Assembly (NCBI GenBank): GCA_003162875.1
Contig: PLUT01000108.1
Coordinates: forward strand, 2,215 to 44,717
Source of the DNA: Granulicella sp.
GTDB lineage: Bacteria; Acidobacteriota; Terriglobia; Terriglobales; Acidobacteriaceae
Direction of reading: 5' to 3'
DNA length: 42,503 bases
Shown: positions 4,459 through 14,612 of the stretch, one piece after another
Layout of the letters: every line of letters begins with the position of its first letter
Position numbering within the stretch: position 1 is the stretch's first letter
Made by a program: the position numbers and the translations under genes
The notes under the pieces: model-generated
What the model was told of the DNA's origin: nothing
The model's database searches: none
What the model saw: only the letters and a program-made list of their open reading frames with translations

Positions 4459-5328
4459 ATGGTTCTCGTGACTCATCAAAACCACTCCTTCGACATTGGT
4501 CCCGTGCACGTCGGCGGCGGCCGCCTCTTCCTGATTGCCGGACCTTGCGTCATCGAGTCGGAGACGCACGCTCGCACGCTCGCTGAGGCCATCCAGCGCA
4601 TCGCCGCCGACCTGCATATTCCCTATATTTTCAAGGCCAGTTACGACAAGGCGAACCGGACCAGCATCCGCAGCTTTCGCGGCCCGGGCCTGATCGAGGG
4701 CGCGCGCATCCTTCGCGCCATCGCACAAGGCACCGCCCTCCCAATTCTCACCGATGTGCACACGCCGGAGGATTGTCTGCGGCTCACCCGGGCGCTGGGC
4801 GACGTCGAAGCGGTGCTGCAAATTCCGGCCTTCCTCTGCCGACAGACCGATCTGCTGATTGCCGCGGCGCACACGGGCCGGGCGATCAACATCAAGAAGG
4901 GGCAGTTCGCGGCTCCCCACGACATGAAGCACGCGGTTGAGAAGGTGCGCGACTCAGCGCCGGCCCGGAGTGACGGCAAGCCGGCCCGCATCTTCGTTAC
5001 CGAGCGCGGAGCAAGCTTTGGCTACAACAATCTCGTCGTGGATATGCGTTCGCTGCCGATCATGCGCGGTTTCGCTCCAGTCGTCTTCGATGGGACCCAC
5101 TCGGTGCAGACGCCGTCGGCTGAGGGCGCGGTCTCCGGCGGGGAGCCGGAGTTTATTTCCGTGCTGGCGCGTGCCGCGGTGGCTGCCGGCGTAGACGGCG
5201 TCTTTCTGGAGGTCCACGACGATCCCGCCCACGCCAGGTCCGACGGCGCGAATGCGCTGCGTCTGGACAAGCTGAAAGGCGTGCTGGAAGAACTGCTGGC
5301 CGTGCAGGCGGCCGTCTCAGGCAAATGA
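4459..5328 (+). CDS. kdsA: 3-deoxy-8-phosphooctulonate synthase (KDO-8-P synthase), metal-dependent type
   Basis: KdsA condenses phosphoenolpyruvate with arabinose 5-phosphate to give KDO 8-phosphate, the precursor of the KDO of lipopolysaccharide. The 289-residue protein has IAGPCVIES (26-34), KASYDKANR (59-67), FRGPGL, and a late EVHDDPAHARSDGANAL block. Cys30 in AGPC is the residue that distinguishes metal-dependent KdsA (Aquifex type) from the metal-independent Escherichia coli type, which has Asn. An in-frame extension of 45 codons exists upstream but overlaps the pectate lyase gene and shows no family similarity, so the ATG at 4459 is preferred. The gene fits with lpxI, lpxA and fabZ further along the window. 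Confidence 0.95.
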   Translation: MVLVTHQNHSFDIGPVHVGGGRLFLIAGPCVIESETHARTLAEAIQRIAADLHIPYIFKASYDKANRTSIRSFRGPGLIEGARILRAIAQGTALPILTDVHTPEDCLRLTRALGDVEAVLQIPAFLCRQTDLLIAAAHTGRAINIKKGQFAAPHDMKHAVEKVRDSAPARSDGKPARIFVTERGASFGYNNLVVDMRSLPIMRGFAPVVFDGTHSVQTPSAEGAVSGGEPEFISVLARAAVAAGVDGVFLEVHDDPAHARSDGANALRLDKLKGVLEELLAVQAAVSGK

Positions 5329-5425: not shown

Positions 5426-5441
5426 GGCGAAATATCCCTCA

Positions 5442-5495
5442 GGGGCTAAAGCCCCAGATTTTATGCGCCTGTTACGGCACGACTAAAGTCGTGCC
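5442..5495. repeat. Twin TAAA-loop palindromes (putative dispersed acidobacterial repeat)
   Basis: Two hairpins share the loop TAAA: GGGGC-TAAA-GCCCC at 5442-5455 and GGCACGAC-TAAA-GTCGTGCC at 5476-5495, separated by 20 bp. The pair sits between the convergent kdsA and the receiver-like gene. The wording of the element (GGGGCTAAAGCCCC, then GGCACGACTAAAGTCGTGCC) matches what I remember of intergenic repeats in Acidobacteria. A genome-wide search would settle the copy number. Confidence 0.75.
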
Positions 5496-5546: not shown

Positions 5547-6647
5547 CTACTGGTTGAAGTTGTCCTCTTCGTCCGGTTGCATGCCGTAGCGGCGCAGCAG
5601 GTTGGGCAGATTCTGCGAGAAGGCGGCGCGCGGGATTACTGCATCGCAACCTGCCTCGACCGCTTTGGCCTTCAGCTCTCCCTGCAGGTGAGAGAGGAAG
5701 CCGATGATCGAGGTGCTCTTCTTCAGCTTCGCCTTAAGCTTCGGAATCAGGGTCAGCGGCTTGACATTCGCATTGTTCAGGTCGAAGACAATCAGGCCGG
5801 GCCGGTCAGCTTCCTCGCCGGCGGTCAGCTCAGCGATAGCGTCTTTGTCATTCTTGACGAAGGCGACCTTGACCCCGAGCTTGCGCGCGGTCTCGGTGAT
5901 TTTGGCATTGAAAAAGAGATCTTCGATGAAGAAGAAGATCTTGGTCGGCGCGTCATCCGGGATTGGAACCGGCCGGCCAATCGAATAGTCGATCGGCTGC
6001 GAGTCGCTGACGTAGCTGCGTCCGCCGCCGTTGCTGCGGCCCTGGTAGTTGCCCTGCGCCTCGATGGTGGAAGGCGGCGTATCGGCGAAATTGCCGTTGA
6101 CCGCGCGGTAGCTGTGGTCCATCGGTCCGACAAAGCTTCTCGGCCCGCGCTCTCGCTGCTTGCCCTTGCGTTTAAATCCACCGGCGCTATTGCCCGGCTG
6201 ATGCGAATCCTTGTCGCGATACCCCGCTCCATTGCCATTGGCGAATCCGTTTGCCGTGGCCTGGTTGCCGGGATTCTCACTGGGGCGCTGACGGTCGCGA
6301 TCGCGGAACTTTTTCTTCCACCGCTTGGTCGACGGACCACCGCCCGCCTGCTGCTGCGGCGCGCCTGCCTGGGGATTCTGCGTCTGGGTGACGGGCGCGG
6401 CAAAACCCTGGCCGCCCTGAATCTCGCCTACAAACTGGCCGGCGCCCTGTTGGCCTGCATCCGGGCCTTTATTCTTGCGCTTGCGGCGGCGCCGGCGACT
6501 GCTCTTGGACTGCCCCATGCCATGGGGTATGCCGTGAGCTGCATCCTGGGAAAAGTCGGCTTGATCGATCTGGCCACCCGTTTGCTCGGGCGCCGGTGGC
6601 GGACCCTGGTGCTCTTGCACCTCGGGCACATTCTGCTCTGAACTCAT
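5547..6647 (-). CDS. Arg/Lys-rich disordered protein with C-terminal degenerate receiver-like domain
   Basis: I do not recognise a named family. The 366-residue protein is low-complexity and polar for about 230 residues (Gln, Gly, Asn, Pro rich), with basic clusters such as SKSSRRRRRKRKNKG near residue 50 and FKRKGKQRERG near 160, as in nucleic-acid-binding disordered tails. The last 130 residues alternate hydrophobic strands and helices like a CheY receiver: KIFFFIEDLFF, VKVAFVKN, GLIVFDL with Asp289 in the phosphoacceptor position, STSIIGFLSH, and AGCDAVIPRAAF. The usual acidic pair after strand 1 and the conserved Lys near the end appear altered, so phosphorylation is doubtful. A regulator that brings nucleic acid to a pseudo-receiver is one reading. 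It is convergent with kdsA. Confidence 0.7.
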   Translation of the reverse strand: MSSEQNVPEVQEHQGPPPAPEQTGGQIDQADFSQDAAHGIPHGMGQSKSSRRRRRKRKNKGPDAGQQGAGQFVGEIQGGQGFAAPVTQTQNPQAGAPQQQAGGGPSTKRWKKKFRDRDRQRPSENPGNQATANGFANGNGAGYRDKDSHQPGNSAGGFKRKGKQRERGPRSFVGPMDHSYRAVNGNFADTPPSTIEAQGNYQGRSNGGGRSYVSDSQPIDYSIGRPVPIPDDAPTKIFFFIEDLFFNAKITETARKLGVKVAFVKNDKDAIAELTAGEEADRPGLIVFDLNNANVKPLTLIPKLKAKLKKSTSIIGFLSHLQGELKAKAVEAGCDAVIPRAAFSQNLPNLLRRYGMQPDEEDNFNQ

Positions 6648-6840
6648 GTATCCACTTCCTATTGCTGGTTAGCGATTCGCGTTTCTTCCCCACGCCGCAG
6701 GTCTCGTTTCTCCCCACAGCGTTCGTGGAGATGGAACCAAACCGGATTTTGAAGCGTCGGTGGAAACGGTATCAAGTTGTACTCGAACCTGCGTTCCAAT
6801 GCATCGATTAGGATGCGACCAGTCGGCAAACTGCTCCTGC

Positions 6841-7359: not shown

Positions 7360-7632
7360 GCTACAGAATGGCCAGTCAAAGGCCTCCTGAATGGGCTCCC
7401 TTGCGGGAGTGGAATCTGGATCATCCGGGGCGCACCTGCTGTGGATGCATCTTCTTCCGGCTCGGACATCGCGAGTGATCGCGCTACCCCTGCTGGCAAT
7501 GCTGCAATCCGAATGCCAAATCCGGCTTAGCAAGGCTTGCGGCAAATCCCCGATTCTTCCTCCGCTCCCCGAGGAGGGTTCACCATAAACCGGAGAACCG
7601 GCATGATTTGCTCCAGATTTCGGTAGATGGGT

Positions 7633-7661
7633 TTGACCCTCCACGATGGGAACCATATAAT
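7633..7661 (+). promoter_or_regulatory. Sigma-70 promoter for the OmpH pair
   Basis: TTGACC (7633-7638) is followed by a 17-bp spacer and a perfect TATAAT (7656-7661). Transcription would start near 7669, giving a leader of about 175 nt before the first OmpH-like start codon. The leader ends with GATCCCGAAG duplicated in tandem and an AAGGAG. Confidence 0.8.
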
Positions 7662-7844
7662 GGAGCCGTTGTGGCAGCCCTCCAGCTGCTATGTGATTCG
7701 TTGCCGATTGAGCGAAGCGATAGGGATTGGTTGCGCGCGAGCGTGGCCTTGGGTGGAGTGGATGCAGGACATGAAGGCGGGTTTATAGCCTGCCTCGATG
7801 ATAGGGACGATCCCGAAGGATCCCGAAGGAGCACCACACCTCAC

Positions 7845-8540
7845 ATGAACGTTAAGTCAGTACTCGTCTCCGCCCTGGTTGCGGGAGCAATGACCACCGC
7901 AGGCATGGCCCAGACGGCAGCACCCCAGGCCCCAGCAACTCCAGCGGCGACAGAGCCCAAAGCTCCGCCCCCACCCCAGGCCTTTAATGCAAGGATTGCA
8001 ATTATCGAGTTTGATGAGGTGGCCGCCGCGACCAACGAGGGCCAGAAGGCCGCCGCGGACATGCAGAAGAAATACGAGCCGAAGCGGACAGAGTTGGAGA
8101 CAGCGCAGACAGAGATCGACTCGTTGACCAAGCAACTGCAAAACGCGCCGGCCAGCATGACCGACGAGGAGAAGGCTTCGCGCGCCAGAACGATCGACAC
8201 CAAGCAAAAGCAACTGCAGCGCGATGCCGATGATGCGCAGAGTTCGTTTGCCGCCGACATGCAGGAAGTGATCGCGAAGATCGAGCCGAAACTTGGGCCG
8301 GTGGTGATGAAGTATGTGCAGCAGAACGGATTCACCATGCTGCTGAACAATACAGGCCCGCCGCAACAGGGCGGACTGGGGTTCCTATGGGCCCCGGGAA
8401 CGGACATCTCGGCGGCAGTGGTCGACGCCTACAACGCCACCACTCCAGGGATTGCGGCACCGACAGCGTCGCGTCCGGCCGCTGCAAAACCGGCCGCTGC
8501 AAAGCCGGCGGTTCCGAAGCCGGCCGCCCCGAAGCAGTAA
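7845..8540 (+). CDS. OmpH/Skp-family periplasmic chaperone, copy 1
   Basis: Skp-like proteins hold unfolded outer-membrane proteins in the periplasm. The 231 residues start with a signal peptide (MNVKSVLVSALVAGAMTTAG, cleavage after MAQ) and an Ala/Pro linker. The OmpH core begins with ARIAIIEFDEVAAATNEGQK, continues through a long charged coiled coil (about residues 65-135), and ends with VVMKYVQQNGFTMLLNN, the typical C-terminal strand. A tail of PAAAKPA-type repeats follows. AAGGAG lies about 13 nt before the ATG, a wide spacing also seen in copy 2. The sigma-70 promoter at 7633 drives it, and copy 2 follows 114 bp downstream, so the two probably form one transcript. Confidence 0.9.
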   Translation: MNVKSVLVSALVAGAMTTAGMAQTAAPQAPATPAATEPKAPPPPQAFNARIAIIEFDEVAAATNEGQKAAADMQKKYEPKRTELETAQTEIDSLTKQLQNAPASMTDEEKASRARTIDTKQKQLQRDADDAQSSFAADMQEVIAKIEPKLGPVVMKYVQQNGFTMLLNNTGPPQQGGLGFLWAPGTDISAAVVDAYNATTPGIAAPTASRPAAAKPAAAKPAVPKPAAPKQ

Positions 8541-8654
8541 GGTTACTGAGCCGCTGAATCGAAATTTGGGAGAAAGAAGCGGACCGTTCCGTATTGCTGG
8601 TGCGGTCGCCAACGTCGAAGAATCCAACCATTCTCCAAGGAGCTTTACCACCGC

Positions 8655-9395
8655 ATGAATCACAAGTCACTACTTCTCGCCGCGTTCATCGCGGGTCTCC
8701 TCCCCTTAGCTGCAGTTGCGCAGGCAGCTCCTGCCGCACCTCAACCGGCGGCCGCGGCCGCACCAGCCGCACCAGCCGCATCCGCCCCGGCTGAACAACC
8801 TCCGCCCGCCCCGGCGGCTTATCCTGCCAAGATCGCGCTGATTGCCTTTGAGCAGGCTGTACTTCAGACCAATGAAGGCCAACAGACCCTGGCGGAAGTG
8901 CAGAAGAAGTACGTGGGGAAGAAGCAGCAGCTCGACGCCCTGGCCGCCGAGATCGATACGCTGAAGAAGCAGTTGCAGGCCGCGCCGGCGACGCTCTCCG
9001 ATGCGGAACGCGCCGCGCGTCTGAAGACCATCGACACCAAGGACAAACAGTACCAGCGCGATGCGGACGACGCTTCGACCGCCTACAACGCAGACGTTCA
9101 GGAGGCCCTGAGCAAGGTGATGCAGAAGGTGGATGTTGTGCTGAGGGCGTACGTCCAGAAGAACGGCTATACCCTGCTGCTCGATGTGGGCGGCCAGCAG
9201 AGCCCAGTCATGTGGACCTCGCCCAATCCCAATGCAGATATAACCGATGCAGTGATCGCGGCTTATAACGTTGCTTCCGGTGTGGCGCCACCGCCGCCGG
9301 CAGCGCCAACGCCGACTGCCGCACCGAAGCCGGCAGCCACCCAGCCGAAACCGCCGGCAACGCATACCCCAGCGACGAAGCCCCCCGCCAAGTAG
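8655..9395 (+). CDS. OmpH/Skp-family periplasmic chaperone, copy 2
   Basis: This 246-residue paralogue of the preceding gene has the same order of parts: signal peptide (MNHKSLLLAAFIAGLLPLAAVAQ), Ala/Pro linker, AKIALIAFEQAVLQTNEGQQ, coiled coil with the shared block RLKTIDTKDKQYQRDADDAS, VLRAYVQKNGYTLLLDV, and an Ala/Pro/Lys/Thr-rich tail. Even the initiation region resembles copy 1 (AAGGAG about 12 nt upstream and CAC-rich spacer), which points to a tandem duplication that included the translation start. The core equals the usual Skp length; the extra size comes from linker and tail. A strong terminator follows 19 bp after the stop. Confidence 0.9.
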   Translation: MNHKSLLLAAFIAGLLPLAAVAQAAPAAPQPAAAAAPAAPAASAPAEQPPPAPAAYPAKIALIAFEQAVLQTNEGQQTLAEVQKKYVGKKQQLDALAAEIDTLKKQLQAAPATLSDAERAARLKTIDTKDKQYQRDADDASTAYNADVQEALSKVMQKVDVVLRAYVQKNGYTLLLDVGGQQSPVMWTSPNPNADITDAVIAAYNVASGVAPPPPAAPTPTAAPKPAATQPKPPATHTPATKPPAK

Positions 9396-13814: not shown

Positions 13815-14612
13815 ATGACGTTCAATGAGCATGGTGGATTCGACGGACTCGATGAGAACATCAGGACCTATTCGGCTGCAGCCAATGGTGACGACCCTGC
13901 GGATGGATATGGCAACAGCCCCTTCGACGATGATGAGGAAGAAGAGGAGGTCGTCGTGGCGATGACCTCGGATGACGACGAGGATCTCGATCAGCTGGAG
14001 GATGAAGTCGACGACCTGCTGCGAAGCGCGTCTCATATTGAGGCGGCAATCATCGTGGCGGCTCCGCCGTCGCCGGCAGCAGGCTATACGCCCGCGGCGA
14101 AGCCTTCGAAGGTTCCCGAGAAGAGCACTGCGCCTCCCGCGCCAAAGAAGGCTGCGAAGAAAGCGTCGCCCGCGAAGAAAGCTCCAGCGAAGAAGGTTCC
14201 TGCGAAGAAAGCAAAGAAGGCCAAGAAGAAGGTAGCGATTAAGGCGGTTGCCAAGAAGGCCGTCAAGAAAGTGGCCAGGAAGGCCGCCAAGAAAGTGGTC
14301 AGGAAGGCCGCCAAGAAAGTGGTCAGGAAGGCCGCCAAGAAGGTGGTCAAGAAGGTTGCCAGGAAGGCGGCCAAGAAAGCTGCCAAGAAAAAGACATTGA
14401 AATCTGCCGCGAAGAAGGCGAGTGCTCGGCGCGGCGGTAAGGCCGCTTTGAAGAAAGCGGTCGGCAAGAAGAGCACTTCAAGAAGCAAAAAACCCAATAC
14501 GAGAGGTACTACCTTGGCAACTAAGAAAGCAGCAAAGAAGGCAGTCAAGAAGGCAGTCAAGAAGGCCCCAGCAAAGAAGGCTGCAAAGAAAGTCGCGAAG
14601 AAGAAGAAGTAG
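13815..14612 (+). CDS. Bipolar acidic / histone H1-like Lys-Ala-rich protein
   Basis: This 265-residue protein is split by charge. Residues 1-75 are very acidic (FDDDEEEEE, SDDDEDLDQLEDEVDDLL). Residues from about 90 to the end consist of PAKKA, KKAAKK and RKAAKKVV repeats, like bacterial histone H1-like (Hc1/AlgP-type) DNA-binding tails. Such basic tails bind DNA or RNA non-specifically; the acidic head could shield the tail or recruit a partner, which is inference. A 24-bp minisatellite encodes part of the tail. AGAGGA lies 7 nt before the ATG, and upstream GCGATCAAG is repeated (13785-13793 and 13795-13803). A terminator follows 28 bp after the stop, so it is probably monocistronic. Confidence 0.82.
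   Translation: MTFNEHGGFDGLDENIRTYSAAANGDDPADGYGNSPFDDDEEEEEVVVAMTSDDDEDLDQLEDEVDDLLRSASHIEAAIIVAAPPSPAAGYTPAAKPSKVPEKSTAPPAPKKAAKKASPAKKAPAKKVPAKKAKKAKKKVAIKAVAKKAVKKVARKAAKKVVRKAAKKVVRKAAKKVVKKVARKAAKKAAKKKTLKSAAKKASARRGGKAALKKAVGKKSTSRSKKPNTRGTTLATKKAAKKAVKKAVKKAPAKKAAKKVAKKKK
14253..14372 (+). repeat. 24-bp minisatellite inside the histone-H1-like gene
   Basis: Five 24-bp units run in frame. The units at 14277 and 14301 are identical, and the one at 14325 differs by one base; all three encode RKAAKKVV. The flanking units at 14253 and 14349 are diverged. Copy number may vary between strains. Confidence 0.85.

Follow-up and report, generated by a model that had tools for sequence, protein, structure and literature searches.

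Pseudo-receivers are homologues of the receiver domain that lack at least one of its five catalytic residues (PMC12632262), and what switches the bacterial representatives on and off has yet to be settled (PMC12632262). One gene in a stretch of 42,503 nucleotides from Granulicella sp., called the window below, raises this question in a particular form. Located at 5547..6647 on the minus strand, it encodes a protein of 366 amino acids in which a basic, disordered region is followed by a pseudo-receiver domain. Has the site of this domain decayed or has it been specialised, and what might the basic tail contribute? In the literature, no study of this family was found.

The gene, its reading frame and transcription signals

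The open reading frame fills positions 5547-6647 exactly, with the ATG at 6647 and the stop codon at 5547-5549, and a conserved AGGA-type ribosome site lies ahead of the ATG. Homologues were detected in nearly all searched genomes of the genus. The organism is an acidobacterium, and among named relatives the genomes of Granulicella and Edaphobacter are closest to it. The full protein of 366 amino acids matched no Pfam family at E<=1 and no NCBIfam model above its cut-off. Two NCBIfam matches below the cut-offs were discarded: TorS (E 2e-4, far under its cut-off), which reflects receiver resemblance, and a putative RNA-binding protein (E 0.16), which was attributed to chance. Many genome annotations probably call the protein hypothetical or a generic response regulator.

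Between 100 and 140 bases ahead of the start codon, an upstream element (6747..6787, minus strand; TTCGAGTACAACTTGATACCGTTTCC) includes the sequence TTGATA-18-CAAAAT and shows 80-88% identity in 26 relatives, compared with about 40% immediately upstream of it. Since this is the sole site in the genome, even when up to 3 mismatches are allowed, a function as operator of a regulon was rejected and the element is read as a candidate promoter, probably the gene's own.

On the opposite strand, a plus-strand frame of 354 amino acids (5577-6641) was considered as a second, overlapping gene and rejected. It is regarded as a by-product of composition because its length varies among relatives, the longest stop-free stretch ranging from 126 to 389 codons, and because constraint tracks the minus-strand protein.

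The C-terminal domain has a receiver fold

The C-terminal domain comprises residues 235-357 (5577..5945, minus strand). Modelled alone by AlphaFold with 41 diverse family members, it reached a pLDDT of 90.3 and a pTM of 0.86 and its strands and helices follow one another as in receivers, in a five-stranded alternating beta/alpha fold. A Foldseek search of the PDB with this model returned 241 chains at E<=1e-3, and among the 50 matches listed nearly all were receivers, with TM-scores mostly of 0.70-0.77. The CheY-like domain proposed in a preliminary description of the locus is thus borne out by structure prediction, at about residues 235-357. Sequence profiles point in the same direction: PF00072 matched the domain with an E-value of 2e-4 and 21.9 bits, under the curated cut-off of 30.2, and it matched 33 of the 41 family members at E<0.1 (best 1.5e-8). 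In the reverse direction, the family profile recovered CheY, PleD and others from the PDB.

The site is specialised

Conservation of the site was counted over 41 diverse relatives, and CheY equivalents were assigned by alignment. The acidic pair Glu242-Asp243 (5919..5924, minus strand), equivalent to CheY D12-D13, had been described as altered and is in fact kept: D243 occurs in 41/41 relatives, and position 242 is D or E in 38/41. Asp289 (5781..5783, minus strand) aligns with CheY D57 and is present in 41/41, as expected from its earlier assignment to the phosphoacceptor place, and at D+2 an Asn is found as in CheY (N291, 38/41). Ser319-His320 (5688..5693, minus strand) take the places of CheY T87 and T+1; Ser occurs in 40/41 relatives and His320 is invariant (41/41). 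The late Lys had correctly been called altered, since the equivalent of CheY K109 is Arg340 (5628..5630, minus strand), with R in 40/41 and K in 1/41. The K-3 position is the non-aromatic Val337, with V, I or L in 41/41. Three of these features, namely Ser319 for Thr87, the invariant His320 and Val337 at K-3, had been missed, as had the location of the gene on the minus strand.

Of the features of a canonical receiver, the domain therefore has the acidic pair, the phosphoacceptor Asp and a Thr/Ser following strand 4, and it has Arg family-wide in place of the Lys following strand 5. With this one of the five catalytic residues replaced, the term pseudo-receiver is correct by the published definition (PMC12632262). 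The term degenerate, used in the preliminary description, is misleading, given that both the acidic pair and the Asp have been retained and that conservation within the domain peaks at the site (mean of 3.45 bits at site positions vs 2.38 across the rest; Mann-Whitney p 5e-5). The site is specialised, not decayed.

In receivers, T+1 is normally Ala or Gly, which gives access to the site, and K-3 is usually a Tyr or Phe that serves Y-T coupling (PMC12632262). Pseudo-receivers often lose both the small T+1 residue and the aromatic K-3, which is a tendency and not part of the definition (PMC12632262). Judged from the residues, the exchange of Lys for Arg, the invariant His at T+1 and the non-aromatic K-3 make canonical switching doubtful. 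Weak phosphorylation may nevertheless occur, since the domain retains both Asp289 and Asp243 as well as an acidic residue at position 242 and, in the Thr place, a Ser.

A working, if unusual, phospho-receiver would have Asp289 phosphorylated by an unlinked kinase or a small phosphodonor, with Arg340 and Ser319 replacing Lys and Thr and the tail serving as output. The invariant Asp243 and Asp289, the nearly always acidic position 242, the CheY-like Asn291 and the tolerated Ser fit this explanation, and substitutions at DD, T or K do not necessarily abolish receiver chemistry altogether (PMC12632262). We consider it unlikely in view of the Arg in place of the catalytic Lys, the bulky His at T+1, the missing Y-T coupling that follows from a non-aromatic K-3, and neighbouring genes without a histidine kinase among those examined.

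Control by a ligand or by redox state without phosphorylation is another explanation, in which either the site pocket or Cys334 would act as sensor. Pseudo-receivers regulated by ligands or by cysteine exist (PMC12632262), the conserved pocket with its invariant His and its Arg differs from that of ordinary receivers, and Cys334 is found in 33/41 relatives; 41 of 43 proteins with the long tail contain no other cysteine. The Cys is, however, replaced by Ala in 7/41 relatives, and ligand families gave no match, so that this mode of control likewise appears improbable.

The disordered N-terminal region contains conserved basic islands

Residues 1-230 (5958..6647, minus strand) form the polar, low-complexity region that had been noticed before. 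It is rich in Gly, Gln, Pro, Asn and Ser (36 Gly, 26 Gln, 22 Pro), contains neither Leu nor Cys and has 32 Arg+Lys vs 20 Asp+Glu, resulting in a net charge of +12 and a pI of 10.2. Disorder is predicted throughout: in an AlphaFold model built with a 33-sequence alignment as input, mean pLDDT is mostly 40-60 without secondary structure, and low confidence extends to about residue 228. A search for solved structures of the tail found none.

Across 33 homologues, the region consists of conserved islands separated by variable spacers. Basic clusters had been recognised before; their number is three (about 51-58, 108-119 and 159-170) and not two, and the motif FVGPMDHSYR has to be added. Cluster 1 (residues 51-58, RRRRRKRK; 6474..6497, minus strand), with R52-55 and R57 invariant in the 33 homologues, belongs to the island 43-58, GMGQSKSSRRRRRKRK, and the block 43-59 shows 95% identity while its synonymous sites are free. 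Cluster 2 (residues 108-119, KRWKKKFRDRDR; 6291..6326, minus strand) has R109, K111 and K112 invariant in A1 and lies in the block 107-119, TKRWKKKFRDRDR, with 90% identity. In cluster 3 (residues 159-170, KRKGKQRERGPR; 6138..6173, minus strand), K159, R160, R167 and R170 are conserved to at least 90%. It is followed by a near-invariant linear motif at residues 172-186 (FVGPMDHSYRAVNGN; 6090..6134, minus strand), which has the form FVGPMDHSYR..NGN with FVGPMDHSYR at 172-181 and shows 96% identity within the genus. A search for FVGPMDHSYR in further proteins of 26 genomes gave no convincing second occurrence.

In total, identity is 90-96% in the islands 43-59, 107-119 and 172-186, and 39-60% in the spacers, those between the first three islands showing 39-50%. 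Synonymous change is alike in both, with 0.36-0.58 of identical residues using a different codon; it is reduced in the first 8 codons only (0.17), as expected close to a start codon. High identity of the islands together with uniform synonymous change therefore indicates selection on the protein sequence, and the basic clusters are conserved at the protein level.

These results bear on a further explanation, in which the receiver has lost its function and is decaying while its low-complexity tail drifts. The Pfam score below threshold and the non-canonical residues could be taken as signs of decay. However, the gene is near-universal in its class, the site is under the strongest constraint and the tail carries islands with free synonymous sites; the conservation results thus refute this explanation, which we regard as highly improbable.

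Distribution and origin of the tail

A full-length profile detected the pseudo-receiver, nearly always in one copy, in 189 of 200 genomes belonging to the class. With a core profile, matches at E<1e-20 came from about 40 genomes sampled from the phylum's other classes; weaker matches of this profile are not separable from ordinary receivers. Twenty of the matches from outside the class were retrieved, and most are stand-alone proteins of about 120 amino acids with the signature DLFF/DLMF, DLN, SHVQ and RSAF, which is drifting in the weakest of them. Plasmid-borne relatives in other phyla were rejected, as only generic receivers were obtained there (23-34% identity, E>=2e-4).

The tail is a feature of one family, f1, to which the protein of the window belongs. 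Both the Arg/Lys-rich tract and the PMDHSYR motif were present in 99 of its 101 sequences, a set that includes the same genomes twice and leaves 39 motif-bearing rows after removal of near-copies. The two exceptions are a shortened frame read (L041) and a sequence with a slightly less dense basic tract (L088). Outside the family, the motif was found in none of 59 sequences and the basic tract in one. In early genera of the family the tail is shorter, at about 70-100 amino acids, and contains both elements. An Arg-rich start that lacks PMDHSYR occurs in one neighbouring family (L089/L141). Tail bearers cluster on the domain tree; the best tree requires two changes for the tail, and a single origin is also possible. 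From these comparisons, the tail is best read as a module that would have been added to an older stand-alone pseudo-receiver and elongated later.

Some individual sequences deserve mention. In one genus a second, diverged copy of the protein occurs (L131), whose site is altered (RDVYY for EDLFF) and whose motif has decayed (GPTDESN for GPMDHSY). Two contigs labelled Rhodanobacteraceae (Gammaproteobacteria) bear the acidobacterial protein (L055 and L063), L063 as the N-terminal part only and L055 with acidobacterial synteny as well; most likely, these are mis-binned or mislabelled metagenome contigs.

Genomic context

The gene and kdsA (stop near 5328; DAHP synthetase I family, PF00793) converge, and about 950 bases lie between the former and an oppositely read OmpH-like gene. 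The search for an operon partner revealed no neighbour conserved beyond close relatives or across the families of the class. Instead, neighbours vary by lineage and include kdsA, HIT and M48 protease genes, G6PD, lumazine synthase and PALP; none of those examined encodes a histidine kinase. The near-universal, mostly single-copy presence in varied neighbourhoods agrees with a housekeeping orphan rather than with a kinase partner tied to an operon.

Structured RNAs and tRNAs were also searched for near the gene, and none was found. At 5441-5495, the hairpins GGGGCTAAAGCCCC and GGCACGACTAAAGTCGTGCC stand in tandem ahead of two near-copies of CCCAGTYTAYGCAAACCAGC; the hairpin pair occurs once in the genome, and the core of the first hairpin reappears in a few of the other loci retrieved. 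Two tandem OmpH/Skp-like genes (7608-9395) each encode a Pro/Ala/Lys-rich tail; the first matched PF03938 and the second was assigned by similarity only. At 13815-14612 lies a gene for a further basic, low-complexity protein, which has an acidic N-terminus and a Lys/Ala-rich, histone-H1-like tail with AKKA repeats.

Proposed function

We tentatively favour, at somewhat less than even odds, the reading that this orphan pseudo-receiver is an adaptor or scaffold tethered to nucleic acid, with a receiver module regulated in a non-canonical way. Electrostatic contacts would let the basic Arg/Lys tracts hold RNA (or DNA). The receiver face would contact a protein or a small ligand rather than serve in a His-Asp phosphorelay of any efficiency, and the role of the PMDHSYR motif would be to recruit a partner or to dock onto the receiver. 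An ancestral receiver-linked function might in this way be brought to RNA or to the nucleoid, perhaps within a condensate.

Composition and the conserved basic tracts make an association with nucleic acid plausible, and the conserved basic disordered region is a feature shared with RNA-binding disordered proteins. The protein of 366 amino acids matched no known RNA- or DNA-binding family in the Pfam, NCBIfam and solved-structure searches. Arg-rich disordered tails can alternatively bind membranes, acidic proteins or polyphosphate. The partner of the tail might be DNA (nucleoid), a membrane or an acidic protein instead of RNA, which would make the protein a localisation factor. Arg/Lys tracts alone cannot separate RNA from DNA or other polyanions, and the window encodes a second Lys-rich, histone-like protein (13815-14612). 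Gln/Asn/Gly-rich spacers with Arg tracts are, however, closer to RNA-binding disordered tails than to Lys/Ala/Pro-rich histone-like proteins. The comparison is not decisive, and we judge the alternative of a localisation factor quite unlikely.

A more specific version of the tethered-adaptor reading combines a phylum-core family of the Acidobacteriota, having a fixed non-phosphorylation pocket (E/D-D-D-S-H-R), with the Arg-rich tail and the PMDHSYR docking motif of the Granulicella/Edaphobacter family into a signal-responsive RNA scaffold without a folded RNA-binding domain. This we put forward as a rather doubtful possibility.

The family is suited to structural and genetic tests, as it is near-universal in the class, is mostly encoded by one gene, has fixed substitutions and exists in a minimal form of about 120 amino acids. 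Furthermore, members with and without the tail offer a natural comparison for the question whether a disordered region can move a receiver module to RNA or DNA.

Comparison with known systems

The protein resembles bacterial pseudo-receivers, i.e. atypical response regulators of PF00072 (PMC12632262), in its receiver fold and orphan gene, in the one missing catalytic residue (Lys replaced by Arg) and in the altered T+1 and K-3 positions. In contrast to those, this family keeps the acidic pair and the Asp, has its own signature DLFF...DLN...SH...(P/A)RS and is without a DNA-binding output domain, and a disordered basic tail is present in one family.

The idea of an RNA-binding pseudo-receiver has a precedent in the ANTAR antiterminators of the AmiR type, in which a pseudo-receiver is combined with an RNA-binding domain (PMC7496416). 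The expectation that a nucleic-acid-associated pseudo-receiver would be an uncommon regulator has to be qualified accordingly, though the known cases use a folded domain (PMC7496416). Both share the junction of a pseudo-receiver with a region for RNA binding, which for the present protein we infer. ANTAR is a folded three-helix domain, whereas the candidate region here is N-terminal and disordered, and the full protein gave no match to ANTAR (PF03861) in Pfam at E<=1.

Similarity to CheY-like stand-alone receivers is seen in the single domain of about 120 amino acids that prevails in most of the phylum, in the E/D-D pair, in the Asp and in the Asn at D+2. It differs from them in having Arg and Ser in the places of Lys109 and Thr87, a His at T+1 and no counterpart of Tyr106. 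Finally, the C-terminal region of RNase E, an RNA-binding disordered tail, is alike in having Arg-rich tracts and short linear motifs within low-complexity spacers. Its sequence is unrelated, and the tail described here, which may bind RNA, is joined to a receiver domain instead of an RNA enzyme.
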